Source of the DNA: Curtobacterium sp. 458
GTDB lineage: Bacteria; Actinomycetota; Actinomycetes; Actinomycetales; Microbacteriaceae
Assembly: GCF_030406605.1 (NCBI RefSeq)
Contig: NZ_CP129104.1
Location: forward strand, 2,865,830-2,929,829
Reading direction: 5' to 3'
DNA: 64,000 bases
Every line of letters begins with the position of its first letter. Within the stretch, counting starts at the first letter, position 1. A program made the position numbers and the translations under genes. The notes under the pieces are model-generated. The model was not told the DNA's origin. It was given only the letters and a program-made list of their open reading frames with translations, and made no database searches. Below, piece after piece: positions 42,810-49,494 of this stretch.

Positions 42810-42882
42810 GGGCGATTGGCGCAGTTGGTAGCGCGCTTCGTTCACACCGAAGAGGTCATCAGTTCGAGTCTGGTATCGCCCA
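42810..42882 (+). tRNA. tRNA-Val (anticodon CAC)
   Basis: 73-base gene on the plus strand: acceptor GGGCGAT/ATCGCCC, D-loop AGTTGGTA, anticodon stem CTTCG/CGAAG with loop TTCACAC (CAC), discriminator A. TACTAT at about 42782 may be the -10 box. The Wadjet-type genes begin 130 bases downstream in the same direction. Confidence 0.95.
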
Positions 42883-42908
42883 CCCGCTGTGTCGCTTGAC
42901 GACACGAC

Positions 42909-43012: not shown

Positions 43013-44560
43013 ATGACCGACGTCGACCTCGAGTTCGCCCGCGTCCGCGCCGTCCTCGACCGTCCGACCCTCCGGCTCCTCTCGCGTCCGACCAGCGCCG
43101 CGGTCGTGGCCGTGTTCCGCGCGGTGTTCGACCGCGACGTCCAGTACGTCCCCGCCGACCGGATGCACCTCCAGGTCGAGGAGCACGTCGCCCGGCTCCA
43201 GGCGATGGGCGCCCGGGTGCCCGCGAGCGAGCAGGGCGGCGACGTCGAGGAGACACGACCGAACGGCCGGGCGCTCTGTCGCGAGTGGGTCGCCGCACAG
43301 TGGCTCGTGCGGTCGAACTCCCCCGACGGCGACGAGCAGTACTCCCTGACGAGCCACGCCCTCGAGGCGCTGAGCCTCGTGGACGCCCTGAGCGCGGATC
43401 GGGCCCTCATCAGCGAGAGCCGCCTCGCGATGATCGTCGACGCCGTGCACCGGTGGGCGGCACGCGCCGAACCCGACCCCGACGTGCAGATCCGCCGCCT
43501 CGACGCACAGATCGCCGAGCTCCAGGCGGAGCGGGACCGGTTGGCGAGCGGCGACACGGTCGAGACCGTCGACGACGACCGGATGCGCGACGGGTACACG
43601 AACATCTCCGACCTCATCCGCCAGCTGCCGAGCGACTTCAAGCGGGTCGAGGAAGCGGTGGCGACGATGCACCGCTCGATCGTCGAGGACTTCCGCAGCG
43701 AGGTCCGCCCGATCGGCGAGATCCTCGACGACTACCTCGCCCGCACCGACAACCTCATGCAGTCGACGCCGGAGGGCCGCGCGTTCGAGGGTGCGTTCGA
43801 GCTCCTCCGCGACGACGCGCTCCTGCTCCGACTCCGTGACGACATCGGCACGATCCTCGCGCACCCGTTCGCCTCCACCCTCGAGCCTGGTGAGCGCCGC
43901 GCGTTCCGGAACACGGTCAGCATCCTGCGGCAGGGCATCGAGGACGTCCTCGCCCGTCGACGACAGCTCACCGCGACCCTCCGCGACCAGATCGTCGCGC
44001 ACGACGTCGTCCGCGACCGCGAGCTCGACGCGGTCCTCCGCTCGGTCAACCGCGGGCTCGCGGCCTGGATCGAGCGTGGATCGGCACGGGACCGCGTGCC
44101 GCTCGGCCTCCTGCCGGAGCCGGCCGAGGTCGAGACCCTCCGCGAGCGCTTCTACGACCCGGACAACGAGTCGGTGCCGCCACCGATCGAGGAGCCCGAC
44201 GACGACGTCTTCGACGACCTCGACGTCGACACGCTCCGGCGCCACGGCGGCCCGCTGCTCGCCGAGCTGCGCGACGCACTCCGGTCCGCGGTCGACACGA
44301 CCAGCGCCGCCGCCTTCCACGGCCTGCCGGACGAGCACCGCCGACCCGTCGAGCTCTTCGGCCTCGCACACCTGCTCACGGGCCGCCCGGACTTCGAGGA
44401 GGCCCGGCACGTGGTCGCCCACCACACGGTCCGGCCCGACGGCAGCGCGGTCACCTTCCACATGCCGACCGCCGCCCTCGCCGACGGCGACGCCACGGCG
44501 GAGCACGACGCAGCGCACGACCCAGCACGCACAGCACCACACGCACAGGAGGCACGGTGA
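43013..44560 (+). CDS. jetA: Wadjet/MksBEF kleisin-like subunit JetA (DUF3375)
   Basis: Protein of 515 residues of the DUF3375 family, the JetA/MksF/EptA kleisin subunit of type I Wadjet SMC complexes. The N-terminal part has RVRAVLDRPTLRLLSRPTSA and FRAVFDRDVQYVPADRMHLQ, family marks. A central segment is a coiled coil (IRRLDAQIAELQAERDRLA), followed by YTNISDLIRQLPSDFKRVEE and a helical C-terminal region. In known complexes it bridges the ATPase heads and binds JetB. AGGGG precedes the ATG. GTGA overlap with jetB. The assignment rests on gene order and recalled family features, not on a search. Confidence 0.88.
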   Translation: MTDVDLEFARVRAVLDRPTLRLLSRPTSAAVVAVFRAVFDRDVQYVPADRMHLQVEEHVARLQAMGARVPASEQGGDVEETRPNGRALCREWVAAQWLVRSNSPDGDEQYSLTSHALEALSLVDALSADRALISESRLAMIVDAVHRWAARAEPDPDVQIRRLDAQIAELQAERDRLASGDTVETVDDDRMRDGYTNISDLIRQLPSDFKRVEEAVATMHRSIVEDFRSEVRPIGEILDDYLARTDNLMQSTPEGRAFEGAFELLRDDALLLRLRDDIGTILAHPFASTLEPGERRAFRNTVSILRQGIEDVLARRRQLTATLRDQIVAHDVVRDRELDAVLRSVNRGLAAWIERGSARDRVPLGLLPEPAEVETLRERFYDPDNESVPPPIEEPDDDVFDDLDVDTLRRHGGPLLAELRDALRSAVDTTSAAAFHGLPDEHRRPVELFGLAHLLTGRPDFEEARHVVAHHTVRPDGSAVTFHMPTAALADGDATAEHDAAHDPARTAPHAQEAR

Positions 44561-45318
44561 GCGACACCACGCCGGCACCGGTCGACGACACGGCCGGGTT
44601 CGAGGGCCTCGACACGGTCCCGCAGGACGAGGACCGCGACGAGACGAGCTTCGCCCTCTTCGAGGGCGACGAGGGTCGTCTCGACGAGCCGCAGCGACGC
44701 GCGCTGGTCGCGCTGCTCCGGCACACCTACGTGAGCGCGCGGACCCACGCCGACGAGTGGCGAGCGGTCCTCGACGCCGAGGGGCAGCTCCGGTCGCGAC
44801 TCAACGACCTCTTCCTCGAGCTCCACGTCGACCGGGACCGCGAGGTCGCCTGGAAGCGCCAGGCCCGCTCGGAGAGCCAACGCCGGGCCTTCCCGACCCT
44901 GCTCCGCGACGTCCCGTACACGCGCGAGGAGACGATCGTCCTCGTCTACCTGCGCATGCGCCTCCGCGCCGACACCCGTCCCGGCCCCGACCAGGTCGTC
45001 GTCGACCGTTCGGAGATCCTCGGGCACGTGGCCGGCTTCCTCCCAGCGGGCTCCACCGACCGCACGCGCGACGAGGCCCGGGTCGCGAGCGCCGTGGAGC
45101 GGCTGGTCCGCGCCCGGATCCTGCTCCGCACCACCGACCCGGACCGCTTCCGCGTGGCGAGCGTCGTCGAGGTGCTCCTGCCCCTCGAACGGCTGCTCGA
45201 GCTCGACACCTGGCTCCGCACCGCGACCAGCGGCGACGGCGAGGCGACCGCCGGAGCCGAGCCGGGCCTCCAGGCCGAGCCGACCGACACCGACGACGAA
45301 GGCGAGCCGGCAGCATGA
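44557..45318 (+). CDS. jetB: Wadjet/MksBEF KITE subunit JetB (DUF4194)
   Basis: Protein of 253 residues, DUF4194 family (JetB/MksE/EptB), a tandem winged-helix KITE protein. Acidic N-terminus, then LVALLRHTYVSARTHADEWR, LNDLFLELHVDRDREVAWKR and ETIVLVYLRMRLRA, a pattern typical of the family, with a second winged-helix-like part near 150-230. It forms a dimer on the kleisin in SMC complexes that act on DNA loops. GTG start overlapping jetA, ATGA overlap with jetC. Confidence 0.88.
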   Translation: MSDTTPAPVDDTAGFEGLDTVPQDEDRDETSFALFEGDEGRLDEPQRRALVALLRHTYVSARTHADEWRAVLDAEGQLRSRLNDLFLELHVDRDREVAWKRQARSESQRRAFPTLLRDVPYTREETIVLVYLRMRLRADTRPGPDQVVVDRSEILGHVAGFLPAGSTDRTRDEARVASAVERLVRARILLRTTDPDRFRVASVVEVLLPLERLLELDTWLRTATSGDGEATAGAEPGLQAEPTDTDDEGEPAA

Positions 45319-48300
45319 CCGACACCGCGACCGGCACGACCGCGTACGAGGAGTACGCGATGCCCGCCCTCTTCGACACGGTGGCGCAGTGGCGTGCCGA
45401 GTCGATGCAGGTCGTGAACTGGGGCGGCTTCCACGGCCACCGCCAGGTGGAGCTGTCCGGCACCGCGACCCTCATCTCGGGCGCGTCCGGCACCGGCAAG
45501 TCGACGCTGATGGACGCGTACCTCGCGGTGATGATGCCGTCCGACGTGCCCTTCAACGGGGCGTCCAACGACACCACGACCGGCCGCGCACGCGGTGCGG
45601 ACCAGCGGAACCTGCTCACGTACCTGCGCGGCAAGGTCGACACCCAGCGCGACCCGGAGACCGGCGCGCTCCGCGACGTCAACCTGCGCGGCGACGACCA
45701 GACGACGTGGGGTGCCGTCGCGGTGACCTTCCGGAACGACGACGAGCGTCGCTTCACGGTGCTGCGCGCGTACATCGTGCCGAAGCGGGCGCGCGGCGTC
45801 GGCGACATCCAGATGACGATGGCGACGGTCGACGACACGTTCGACCTGCGCCGGCTCGAGGAGTTCGTGCCGTCGCGCTTCCACCACCTCGAACTGACCG
45901 GCCGCGTGCCCGGGCTCGTGATCCGCGACACCTACCAGGAGCTCGCGTACACCCTGCAGACCCGGCTCGGCATCGGTGACTCCGGCGGCGGCAACCGGGC
46001 GATGCGCCTGCTCGCCCGCATCCAGGCCGGGCAGCACCTCCCGACCGTCGACGCCCTGTACAAGTCGCTCGTCCTCGAGACGCCCGCCACCTACGAGGCG
46101 GCCGACCGTGCCCTCGCGCACTTCTCGGCCCTCGACGAGGCGTACGAGGCGATGGACACCGAGGAGCGCAAGGTCCGAATCCTCTCGCCCATCGTCGACC
46201 TCCACGCGGAGATCGCCCGGTCGAAGGCGGCTGCCGCTGCGCTCGACGGCATCGCCACCGGCGCCGAGGTCTCCCCGTTCGCGCACTGGACGGCCTCCCG
46301 GAAGCGCGCGCTCCTCGACGACGAGGTCGCCCGGAACACCCGCGAGCGCACGGCCGCGCGAGCGGAGGTCGCCGCCGCGTCCGCTCGGCACGCAGCCGTC
46401 GAGATCGAGCTCCGGGACGCCGAGGCCCGGCTCCGCGACCAGGGCGGCAACGCGCTCGCGCAGCTCGAGGACCGCATCGACCGCCGCACGCGCGAGCGTG
46501 ACGCAGCGGCCCGGTCCCGCGCCGTGTTCGAGGAGCGCACCGCCGTCCTCGAGACCACGGTCGACTCCGAGACCGGGTTCTCCGCGGCGCAGCGAGCGTC
46601 GCACGACTTCCTCGGGACGTACGCCACCGCTCGGCAGGAACTCGACCAGCGCCGCGACGCCCTGACCCGCGAGGAGTACCCGCTCCTCGACCGCGAACGC
46701 ACCCTGCGCCAGGAACGGCAGTCGCTCGAGCACCGCCAGGGCGCCATGCCGCTGCCGATGCACGAGGCCCGGGTCGCGATGGCCCGCGCCGCCGGCACCG
46801 ACCCCGCCGACCTGCCCTTCGTGGCGGAGCTCCTCGACGTGCTCCCGGGCGAGGAAGCCTGGCGGACGGCGATCGAGTCCGTGCTCGCGCCCGTCGCCCG
46901 CACGCTCCTGGTCGACCAGGACCACCTCGCGGCCTTCAGCGAGGCCATCGACTCCCTCCGCCTGCCCGTGCGGGTCCAGTTCGAGGGCGTCCCCACCGGG
47001 CCGCACATCGACCTCGACGGCGACCCGTCGATGGTGTCGGGGAAGCTCGCGATCAAGCCGTCCCCGTTCAGCACCTGGGTGCGCGAACGCATCGAGTCGG
47101 AGCGCACCGACGCCCGCTGCGTCGAGGACGCGGGCGACCTCGGCGGCGGGGGCCGTCGGGTGACGCGGTCCGGACAGCTCCGTGACGGCCGACGTGGCGC
47201 ACACGGCGACCGGCGCCAGGCGAACGTCATCGGGTTCACGAACGAGGCCAGGGTCACCGCGGTCGAGGAGGAGCTCGCCTCCATCGCCGAGGACCTCGCG
47301 ACGCTCGAGGCCCGGCGCACCGACGTCGCGCAGGACATCGCCGCGCTCGACGCCCTCCGCAATGCGCACCAGCACGTGGTCGACGCGAGCTGGGACGGCA
47401 TCGACGTCGCGGGTCTGGACGAGTCGCTCGCGCAGCTCGACGCCGAACGCCAGGCGCTGCTCGCCGCCGACGACGGTCTCCGGACGCTCCGGGCGACGGT
47501 CGCTCGGCTCCGGGCTGCCCTCGACGAGGCCTCCGACCGCCGGTCCGCAGCGCGCTTGTCGGTCTCGCGACTCGAGGAGCGTCACGGTGTCCTCGTCGAC
47601 GGGCAGGACGCCGCCGCCGAGATCCTCGCGCGCTTCGACGACGCCCCGGACTCGCTGCCGGACGACGAACAGGCGCAGCTGCTGTCCGAGACGTTCGAGG
47701 AGGTCGGTGCCCCCGACGGCATCGACGGCTTCGACGACGCCACCCGCCGGCTGCGACGACGGCTCGACGAGCGGCTGTCGCAGGCGCTCGACGGTGCCGC
47801 TTCGGCCTCGAACGCCCTGACCCTGACGTTCCAGCGGTACCAGGACGCCTGGCCGGACCCGAACCTCGGCACCGGGGTCGCCTCCTACGAGGACTACCAC
47901 GCGATCCTCGAGCAGATCCTCGCGACCGGCCTCCATGCCCGTCGGACCGAGTGGCGTCGGCGGCTCTCGCAGTGGAGCGGCGAGGACCTCGTGCCGCTCG
48001 CAGGAGCCTTCGACCGGGCCGTCGTCGAGATCGAGGAGCGCCTGGAGCCGGTCAACGAGATCCTCCGCGAGCTGCCGTTCGGCGCGAACCGGGACCGGCT
48101 GAAGATCGTCATCCGCCGCGTCACCCGCGAAGAGGTCGCGTCGTTCCGCAAGGAGCTCCGCGCGCTGTCGGCCTCGGTGGACACCGAGTTGACCGACGAC
48201 GTGCTCGAGACCCGGTTCCGTCGCCTCCGCCGGTTCATGGCGATCATCCGGCCGGACTCCGCCGCACCCCGGGGCCGCACCACCGCCCGGGACGCCGTGC

Positions 48301-48707
48301 TCGACGTCCGCCGGCACATGGAGATCACCGCCGTCCGCTACGACGTCGACGGGAACGACCTCGGCGTGTACTCGTCCCTCGGCGACAAGTCCGGCGGCGA
48401 GACGCAGGAGCTGGTCGCGTTCATCGTCGGCGCCGCGCTCCGGTACCAGCTCGGCGACGAGACACGGCCACGGCCCCGGTTCGCGCCGGTGTTCCTCGAC
48501 GAGGCGTTCATCAAGGCGGACTCCGAGTTCGCCGGGCGTGCGGTGACAGCGTGGCTCCGGCTCGGCTTCCAGCTCGTGGTGAGCGCGCCGCTCGACAAGG
48601 TGACGGCGCTCGAACCGTCCATGGAGCGCCTGCTCTCGATGCGGAAGCACCCCGACACGGGCCACTCGTCCATCACCGAGATCGCGCGGGTCGCGCCCGG
48701 CGCGTAG
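45315..48707 (+). CDS. jetC: Wadjet/MksBEF SMC-like ATPase JetC
   Basis: Long SMC/Rad50-like ATPase of 1130 residues. Walker A is ISGASGTGKST (about 55-64) after VNWGGFHGHRQVELSG. Two long coiled-coil arms with many Arg/Glu/Ala heptads (about 300-480 and 640-880) flank a hinge-like region (about 490-620). The signature motif is GDKSGGETQEL (about 1022) and Walker B is PVFLDEAFIKAD (about 1058). In Wadjet the complex extrudes DNA loops and, with the JetD nuclease, cleaves circular plasmids. All ATPase motifs are intact, so this protein should be active. A downstream ATG (MPALFDTVAQW) is a possible alternative start. No jetD follows. Confidence 0.92.
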   Translation: MTDTATGTTAYEEYAMPALFDTVAQWRAESMQVVNWGGFHGHRQVELSGTATLISGASGTGKSTLMDAYLAVMMPSDVPFNGASNDTTTGRARGADQRNLLTYLRGKVDTQRDPETGALRDVNLRGDDQTTWGAVAVTFRNDDERRFTVLRAYIVPKRARGVGDIQMTMATVDDTFDLRRLEEFVPSRFHHLELTGRVPGLVIRDTYQELAYTLQTRLGIGDSGGGNRAMRLLARIQAGQHLPTVDALYKSLVLETPATYEAADRALAHFSALDEAYEAMDTEERKVRILSPIVDLHAEIARSKAAAAALDGIATGAEVSPFAHWTASRKRALLDDEVARNTRERTAARAEVAAASARHAAVEIELRDAEARLRDQGGNALAQLEDRIDRRTRERDAAARSRAVFEERTAVLETTVDSETGFSAAQRASHDFLGTYATARQELDQRRDALTREEYPLLDRERTLRQERQSLEHRQGAMPLPMHEARVAMARAAGTDPADLPFVAELLDVLPGEEAWRTAIESVLAPVARTLLVDQDHLAAFSEAIDSLRLPVRVQFEGVPTGPHIDLDGDPSMVSGKLAIKPSPFSTWVRERIESERTDARCVEDAGDLGGGGRRVTRSGQLRDGRRGAHGDRRQANVIGFTNEARVTAVEEELASIAEDLATLEARRTDVAQDIAALDALRNAHQHVVDASWDGIDVAGLDESLAQLDAERQALLAADDGLRTLRATVARLRAALDEASDRRSAARLSVSRLEERHGVLVDGQDAAAEILARFDDAPDSLPDDEQAQLLSETFEEVGAPDGIDGFDDATRRLRRRLDERLSQALDGAASASNALTLTFQRYQDAWPDPNLGTGVASYEDYHAILEQILATGLHARRTEWRRRLSQWSGEDLVPLAGAFDRAVVEIEERLEPVNEILRELPFGANRDRLKIVIRRVTREEVASFRKELRALSASVDTELTDDVLETRFRRLRRFMAIIRPDSAAPRGRTTARDAVLDVRRHMEITAVRYDVDGNDLGVYSSLGDKSGGETQELVAFIVGAALRYQLGDETRPRPRFAPVFLDEAFIKADSEFAGRAVTAWLRLGFQLVVSAPLDKVTALEPSMERLLSMRKHPDTGHSSITEIARVAPGA

Positions 48708-48750
48708 CCGCGGGGCGCGGCAGCGGCGGCGCGGGGCGGCGCGGGGCTGG

Positions 48751-48904
48751 CTGGTCGCAAAACATGTCGCCCCGCCCGCCGCGCGACGGCACGTCGTGCG
48801 ACCAACGCGCGACGCGAACGGCGTGTCCTGCGACCAACGCGATCCGGACGCGGACGGGAGGCACGGTGCGAGGCCGCCACGCGCCTCCCGTCCGTCGCCT
48901 GCCG
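48751..48904. repeat. tandem repeat unit 1 (154 bp)
   Basis: First of three tandem copies that begin CTGGTCGCA. It holds one forward motif (GGTCGCAAAACATGTC, 48753-48768), two inverted TGCGACCAACG motifs 32 bases apart (48797, 48829) and a palindrome GGACGGGAGGC/GCCTCCCGTCC (48852-48893) of the dispersed family. It starts 44 bases after the jetC stop. Confidence 0.85.
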
Positions 48905-49057
48905 CTGGTCGCAGAACATGTCGCCCCGGCCGCCGCGCGACGGCGTGTCCTGCGACCAACGCGCGACGCGGACGGCATGTCCTGCGACCAACGCGACCGG
49001 CGCAGCGGACGGGAGGCGGTGCGAGGCCGCCACGCGCCTGCCGTCCGTCGCCTGCGG
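48905..49057. repeat. tandem repeat unit 2 (153 bp)
   Basis: Second copy, same order of parts: forward motif GGTCGCAGAACATGTC (48907-48922), inverted motifs at 48951 and 48983 (again 32 bases apart) and a palindrome (49007-49046) with one mismatch. Confidence 0.85.
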
Positions 49058-49152
49058 CTGGTCGCAGAACATGTCGCCCCGGCTGCCGCGCGACGGCACG
49101 TCGTGCGACCAACGCGGGGCGCGGACGGCGTGTCCCGCGACCAACGGGCAGC
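49058..49152. repeat. tandem repeat unit 3, truncated (about 95 bp)
   Basis: Third copy: forward motif at 49060-49075 and inverted motifs at 49104 and 49136 (32 bases apart). It ends before the palindrome, shortly upstream of the promoter of the next gene. Confidence 0.8.
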
Positions 49153-49188: not shown

Positions 49189-49494
49189 GTGTTCGGACGC
49201 CGCTCCCCCAGCCCCCGCCCCGACGACCGCCCCGGCCTCGGGATCGGGGCACTCGTCCAGGTGGTCGACCCCGGCCAGCAGGGCGGCGAGCACTGGGCCG
49301 ACGAACCGATCGGCGTCATCGTCGCACCGGGTGGGAGCCAACTCGGCGGGACGCAGCGGACGTGGACCGTCGCGTTCGACGAGCCCGCGTACACGACGGA
49401 CGGCCGCGGCCCCTTCGAGCGCGCGACCGTCCTGAGTCGTCAACTGGTGCCGGTCGAGCCGGCAGCGGCCACCGGGGCCGACGAGCGGGCCTAG
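49189..49494 (+). CDS. conserved-looking small soluble protein
   Basis: Protein of 101 residues, not recognised. After a Pro/Arg-rich N-terminus it reads GIGALVQVVDPGQQGGEHWA and TWTVAFDEPAYTTDGRGPFE, suggesting a small SH3-like beta-barrel. The name ferrous-iron transport A-like came to mind for such barrels, but I cannot support it. The GTG start follows TACGGT by six bases, so the gene is probably leaderless. Its TAG stop sits in the CTAG shared with the stop of the small peptide gene on the other strand. It is not a JetD fragment. Confidence 0.65.
   Translation: MFGRRSPSPRPDDRPGLGIGALVQVVDPGQQGGEHWADEPIGVIVAPGGSQLGGTQRTWTVAFDEPAYTTDGRGPFERATVLSRQLVPVEPAAATGADERA

Follow-up and report, generated by a model that had tools for sequence, protein, structure and literature searches.

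A JetABC operon without the JetD nuclease at a conserved chromosomal site in most of Curtobacterium

The window analysed here, a stretch of 64,000 nucleotides from Curtobacterium sp. 458 (contig NZ_CP129104.1, positions 2,865,830 to 2,929,829), carries jetA, jetB and jetC, the genes of a complex of the structural maintenance of chromosomes (SMC) type, without the nuclease gene jetD. In the Wadjet system, as described in the relevant sections of PMC10586767, JetABC is an ATP-driven, loop-extruding sensor and JetD the cutter. The genome consists of one contig of 3.68 Mb with a completeness score of 100%, and the three genes and the transfer RNA (tRNA) gene that marks their site are arranged as follows:

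42810..42884, plus strand: tRNA-Val (anticodon cac; ARAGORN), landmark of the conserved site, ending 128 bases upstream of jetA
43013..44560, plus strand: jetA, kleisin subunit, 515 amino acids (DUF3375; Pfam and PADLOC)
44557..45318, plus strand: jetB, KITE subunit, 253 amino acids, GTG start (DUF4194; Pfam and PADLOC)
45315..48707, plus strand: jetC, SMC ATPase subunit, 1130 amino acids (PF13555 and PF13558, PADLOC JetC1, motifs)

JetA matches Pfam PF11855 (DUF3375) with an E value of 4.3e-100 and 336 bits against a cut-off of 28.6, and PADLOC JetA1 with 4e-184; the corresponding values for JetB are 3.8e-33 and 115 bits (cut-off 32.7) for PF13835 (DUF4194) and 2e-108 for JetB1. JetC matches PF13555 (AAA_29), PF13558 (SbcC_Walker_B) and PADLOC JetC1 (E value 0), and a motif check found its Walker A, signature and Walker B motifs. 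With JetA1, JetB1 and JetC1 as the top PADLOC models, the locus consists of type I Wadjet genes. By sequence, JetC matches solved Wadjet chains (8dk2, 8as8 and others) and JetA likewise matches solved chains; for JetB, no solved chain was matched at E ≤ 0.01. All three frames are open, with overlaps of four bases between jetA and jetB and between jetB and jetC. The open reading frame (ORF), profile and motif analyses thus bear out the initial annotation, which had described three intact, overlapping SMC-complex genes with all JetC ATPase motifs, directly downstream of tRNA-Val.

The initial annotation had also found no adjacent jetD, and had suggested that the gene might lie elsewhere in the genome. 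The space downstream of jetC contains no JetD, its contents being a repeat, a small ORF and a gene for a POT-type transporter, and neither of the two JetD domains, JetD_C (PF09983) and DUF3322 (PF11795), has a Pfam match anywhere in this one-contig genome, whereas the PF09983 search detects JetD in another Curtobacterium and in Corynebacterium glutamicum. A jetD elsewhere in the genome is therefore rejected at the sensitivity of Pfam, and the search favours a nuclease-free variant. That a JetD is present and too diverged for the Pfam models, or is carried on an unassembled plasmid, seems very improbable. Sequence searches are limited (the first look passed no PF09983 candidate in this genome), and in a few genomes a JetD_C match does lie away from the listed JetA place (G423; G320, a fragment; G251, on another contig). 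However, all 54 JetD-bearing rows of the JetC tree described below have JetD immediately after jetC on the same strand, within 191 bases in 52 of them, and this position is occupied here by the repeat, the small ORF and the transporter gene only; moreover, two separate domains would both have to be missed, and JetD_C is unmatched in 65 of the 66 genomes of the genus.

JetC was found in 63 of these 66 Curtobacterium genomes, the others being G043, G044 and G065 (73% complete), and is in pieces in G010, G022 and G024. The single genome with JetD_C, G002, combines the usual JetD-less locus, 73% identical to that of the window, with a second, distant Jet locus that includes JetD and whose JetC is 29% identical. 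Among the scanned genomes, Curtobacterium luteum strains are the closest relatives at the locus, with JetC 98% and 94% identical. The site was compared in a set of 45 loci (43 titled Curtobacterium, plus Microbacteriaceae bacterium PS02333 and PS02332). Of these, 43 have tRNA-Val upstream of jetA, and the contigs of the remaining two (L024, L044) start in or after jetA; 40 have an acyl-CoA oxidase gene downstream, and the remaining five contigs end before that point. The operon thus occupies one conserved chromosomal site in most of Curtobacterium. Because the three-gene form is normal across the genus at this site, a deletion artefact or misassembly in a lineage that normally carries all four genes, a scenario left open by the initial annotation, is rejected.

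The three genes are under purifying selection similar to that on their neighbours. When the window was compared pair by pair with the genus-level loci (43 at most), the median ratio of non-synonymous to synonymous substitution rates (dN/dS) is 0.204 for JetA (n = 41), 0.210 for JetB (n = 43) and 0.145 for JetC (n = 43), and for the flanking transporter and oxidase 0.160 (n = 35) and 0.153 (n = 38), respectively. In the JetC tree, all 75 JetD-less rows have the Walker A and signature motifs, and 69 match the strict Walker B pattern; the 54 JetD-bearing rows show Walker A in 50, the signature in 51 and Walker B in 51. Three loci of group f4 g27 (L195, L196, L197) encode a JetC beside JetD whose Walker A and signature patterns are unmatched in the best-hit frame, and these proteins may have diverged motifs or be inactive ATPases. 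The retained motifs, the dN/dS values near those of neighbouring genes and the depth of the JetD-less clades make it highly unlikely that JetABC is a relic which lost JetD recently and is drifting towards decay, even though some copies are interrupted or in pieces (G010, G024, L066); the breaks in G010 are possibly errors, since that assembly is 65% complete.

The JetD-less state extends well beyond Curtobacterium. By counts that rest on Pfam models plus a first-look filter, 171 of 396 genomes of the order have JetA (PF11855) and 89 have JetD_C (PF09983); the two occur together in 85 genomes, JetA lacks an accompanying JetD_C match in 86, and four have JetD_C without a JetA match. Among the 86, the JetA match of G445 falls below the curated cut-off, and G191 and G228 are 88-89% complete. 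Of the 51 JetA-bearing genera, 30 include genomes that have JetA but no JetD_C match, with large differences between groups (21 of 27 genomes in g18, 11 of 12 in g42, four of four in g21, three of 28 in g13). From the order scan, stretches around 100 of the JetA places, followed by 20 of the JetC places, were fetched, the choice being made for spread. Among named relatives, JetD is lacking within the fetched stretch in Sanguibacter, Timonella, Jonesia, Paraoerskovia, Isoptericola, Luteimicrobium and Microlunatus parietis, and is present in Nocardioides cremeus, whose JetC is 43% identical. Both states occur within one genus (e.g. L125 and L145) and even within one genome, G184, which has a JetD-bearing and a JetD-less JetABC (L126 and L127). 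In G169, G264 and G397, a JetD-bearing locus is accompanied by another jetA whose fetched stretch contains no JetD. As about half of the sampled JetA-bearing genomes (86/171) have no JetD_C match, a JetABC match in these genera should not be scored as anti-plasmid defence.

For the JetC tree, 150 loci were considered, of which 13 without a 900-amino-acid JetC stretch and eight duplicates were dropped, leaving 129 rows; a row was labelled JetD-less if no JetD match above 60 bits lay within its fetched stretch. On a FastTree tree of these rows (75 without and 54 with JetD), the JetD state changes 11 times, and on an IQ-TREE tree of 48 of them, hand-picked to cover the clades, it changes ten times, at least eight of which are forced by well-supported branches. 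In approximately unbiased (AU) tests, a single clade of all JetD-less rows was rejected (p-AU 1.75e-56), as was holding together Curtobacterium and the cellulomonad-type groups (p-AU 1.09e-52) or the cellulomonad-type JetD-less rows alone (p-AU 4.8e-63), the last because the JetD-bearing L151 and L167 sit among them. Trees alone cannot tell gain of JetD from loss; if regain is disallowed, the midpoint-rooted FastTree tree requires 18 losses. We consider repeated loss of JetD likeliest, rather than ancestral absence, because JetD adjoins jetC in every JetD-bearing row and because the JetD tree partly mirrors the JetC tree, for instance in placing L068 with L178 and L179 and in grouping L086 to L089. 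Among the dropped loci, jetC and JetD are about 2.6 kb apart in the duplicate L156 (G415), and in L188 JetD adjoins a JetC fragment.

The JetD-less loci sit in housekeeping surroundings. Of the 20 rows in one JetD-less clade, 18 have leuS upstream (leucyl-tRNA synthetase by Pfam in L080), and the two exceptions, L071 and L075, are short contigs. Downstream, 15 loci carry a DegV gene and nine an SLBB/HHH gene; one member of each of these three families was tested by Pfam, and to regard the SLBB/HHH gene as ComEA-like is our own reading. A FecCD-type iron (siderophore) importer is encoded in 14 loci, after jetC in the five of group f6 and after jetB in the nine of group f12, where jetA and jetB are 1.6 to 8.6 kb apart. 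The f12 locus L113 has the importer between jetB and jetC; in the remaining eight loci of that group, the fetched stretch ends before jetC. In five f12 loci (L113, L130, L144, L150, L152) the tight jet operon is broken up by genes between jetA and jetB, and L113 retains all three jet genes. With their common neighbour genes, the JetD-less groups f6 and f12 may be one old lineage split by the tree.

Two further features follow jetC in the window:

48749..49146, no strand assigned: tandem repeat, 153-base unit, 2.6 copies (Tandem Repeats Finder, TRF); local minisatellite
49189..49494, plus strand: small conserved ORF, GTG start, 101 amino acids; candidate fourth gene of the genus-level locus

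Beyond them lie the genes for the POT-type transporter and the acyl-CoA oxidase, both names being our reading of the ORFs, and upstream of the tRNA-Val gene at 42810..42884 are tRNA-Val, tRNA-Cys and tRNA-Gly on the minus strand. The repeat array reported earlier right after jetC is real. It carries TGGTCGCAGAACATGTCGCC-like cores. Allowing one mismatch, the 20-base core can be placed three times at this site, and the rest of the genome has four more occurrences, each with two mismatches. Among 44 loci compared, a few of them with little sequence beyond jetC, clusters of three or more TGCGACCA within 900 bases after jetC were seen elsewhere only in L024 and, in part, in L061. With so sparse a core and clusters confined to these close relatives, the array was rejected as a component of the system.

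The initial annotation had placed unrelated genes after the array; among these is the conserved 101-amino-acid ORF, which it overlooks. This ORF bears on the proposal that JetABC relies on another effector in place of JetD, either a nuclease or some other partner with its gene elsewhere or, in Curtobacterium, the 101-amino-acid protein. We regard this proposal as unlikely. In 40 of the 41 genus-level loci whose contig continues past jetC, the ORF follows on the same strand, at distances of 31 to 4221 bases (31 in Curtobacterium ammoniigenes). The mean column identity of its product is 70% across 13 aligned members, and it was not found in G043, G044 and G065, the three genomes of the genus without JetC. 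On the other side, it was not found in Leaf261 (L051, on the same contig as G024/L228), although jetABC is present there; its product has no Pfam match, and the structural model is poor, with a mean predicted local distance difference test score (pLDDT) of 55.6. In a family check of 46 genomes, the ORF was found in nine of 13 Curtobacterium and weakly in two of 33 others, both of genus g4, where the homologues lie on contigs other than those with JetABC and, in our reading, adjoin a gatB-like ORF. The 101-amino-acid ORF is a possible fourth gene of the genus-level locus. For the order at large, no effector-like family common to the JetD-less JetC clades was evident among the 28 widest neighbour families; f6 and f12 share the iron importer, and a shared replacement effector is not supported. 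Of the two remaining options offered by the initial annotation, another effector or a role only in chromosome organisation, the first finds no candidate common to the JetC clades among these families, and a nuclease-free SMC complex is likeliest.

We therefore favour, with a probability of roughly 0.6, the reading that JetABC is a stably inherited complex which derives from type I Wadjet by loss of JetD and now serves a chromosomal task, in the manner of MksBEF. The genome also encodes a canonical SMC protein (826.7 bits, 2446778-2450476), and the Curtobacterium complex is probably a second, accessory chromosome-organising SMC beside it, to judge by its conservation, its site and precedent: JetD is gone, MksBEF of Pseudomonas aeruginosa PAO1 acts on the chromosome (as reported in the relevant part of PMC7485682), and MksBEFG of C. 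glutamicum, which includes the nuclease, acts on plasmids rather than in chromosome folding (as stated in the corresponding part of PMC7083940). We propose the following hypothetical sequence of events, in which (i) JetA (kleisin), JetB (KITE) and JetC (SMC) would assemble as the usual dimer of SMC motors; (ii) the dimer would load on DNA and extrude loops with ATP; (iii) a finished loop on a circular plasmid would yield no cut without JetD, so that the motor would not restrict plasmids in the Wadjet way; and (iv) the cell would keep the motor for work on the chromosome alongside the canonical SMC, as P. aeruginosa does with MksBEF.

Immunity without a nuclease is a different possibility, in which JetABC would recognise plasmid or phage DNA and silence or compact it without cutting. 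Eukaryotic Smc5/6 has been proposed to act in this way on viral circles. The jetABC genes are intact here, and the sensing of circular DNA is attributed to JetABC rather than to JetD in the part of PMC10586767 concerned with it. However, the same part of that source states that all four genes are needed against plasmids in Bacillus subtilis, and JetD-less loci lie at fixed chromosomal sites in several groups, unlike mobile defence islands. We consider nuclease-free immunity improbable, slightly more so than a replacement effector.

Several observations weigh against JetABC as a stably inherited chromosomal complex that lost JetD. JetA is unmatched in 225 of the 396 genomes of the order, unlike a universal condensin. 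Two good Curtobacterium genomes, G043 and G044, have no JetC match, and at their site (L220, L221), where the tRNA cluster and the oxidase gene lie within about 1.3 kb, neither jetABC nor the POT gene was found, so that jetABC is dispensable; the site may be an empty one or reflect a clean loss. An unrelated nuclease encoded elsewhere is possible. With regard to descent, checks of the JetC tree flag long branches that meet, and the JetD tree puts L151, L167 and L171 together in a single basal group, yet their JetC rows are scattered in a mostly JetD-less clade, so some transfer or regain of JetD is possible. With regard to the JetD interface, the columns conserved in JetD-bearing rows and lost in Curtobacterium and its kin number 8 of 96 in JetA, 4 of 49 in JetB and 13 of 248 in JetC. 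This column comparison of the three subunits gave no clean residue signature of a lost interface, and the top JetC columns (T-R after Walker B) vary within JetD-bearing rows too. The JetD-contacting IFDR motif that PMC10586767 places at the N-terminus of JetB speaks for neither side: no IFDR string was seen by eye at that end of JetB, whether or not the row has JetD, and an L[F/W]xGDxGxL-like stretch recurs there in many rows with and without JetD.

Taken further, a plasmid-destroying SMC system might have been disarmed many times within one order by separate losses of JetD, its motor becoming a vertically inherited chromosome organiser at fixed housekeeping sites (leuS, the iron importer, the tRNA cluster); we offer this broader scenario tentatively, as somewhat short of an even bet. 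If it is true, the change from immunity to a condensin function that has been put forward for Pseudomonas MksBEF would have taken place repeatedly in evolution. Loss of JetD as such is already an idea in print, as MksBEF is said in the relevant part of PMC10586767 to have likely arisen in this way. The literature consulted contained no report of a JetD-less JetABC in actinobacteria, a coverage too limited for us to claim that it is unreported. These loci bear on two questions: do Wadjet-type motors act on chromosomes, and by what route have SMC complexes passed between immunity and chromosome maintenance? The published pair, C. glutamicum with MksG and P. aeruginosa without, differs in many respects, whereas the order offers many internal comparisons.

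Among known systems, the Curtobacterium locus has in common with type I Wadjet (JetABCD; MksBEFG of C. glutamicum, EptABCD of Mycobacterium smegmatis) a JetA of DUF3375, a JetB of DUF4194 and an SMC protein JetC, with matches to solved JetA and JetC chains. It differs in that type I Wadjet has the Toprim nuclease JetD (DUF3322 plus JetD_C) next to jetC, while here none was found and one site is kept in most of the genus. For complete JetABCD in Bacillota, PMC12287153 reports that the system and small plasmids are nearly mutually exclusive. With MksBEF of P. aeruginosa PAO1 it shares a MukBEF-like SMC-kleisin-KITE operon without MksG, present beside a canonical SMC. However, the JetB of the window matches the Pfam MksE model (PF21980) weakly, with 17.3 bits against a cut-off of 27, and its best PADLOC model is type I JetB; on this basis, the two are probably separate lineages. 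The chromosomal role is demonstrated for MksBEF of PAO1, whereas for the Curtobacterium complex we infer it. MukBEF of Escherichia coli has the same SMC-kleisin-KITE architecture, and the N-terminus of JetC matches the Pfam MukB model with 31.3 bits against a cut-off of 23. MukBEF is distant in sequence and replaced SMC-ScpAB, as stated in the pertinent part of PMC10586767, whereas the Curtobacterium genome retains its canonical SMC.

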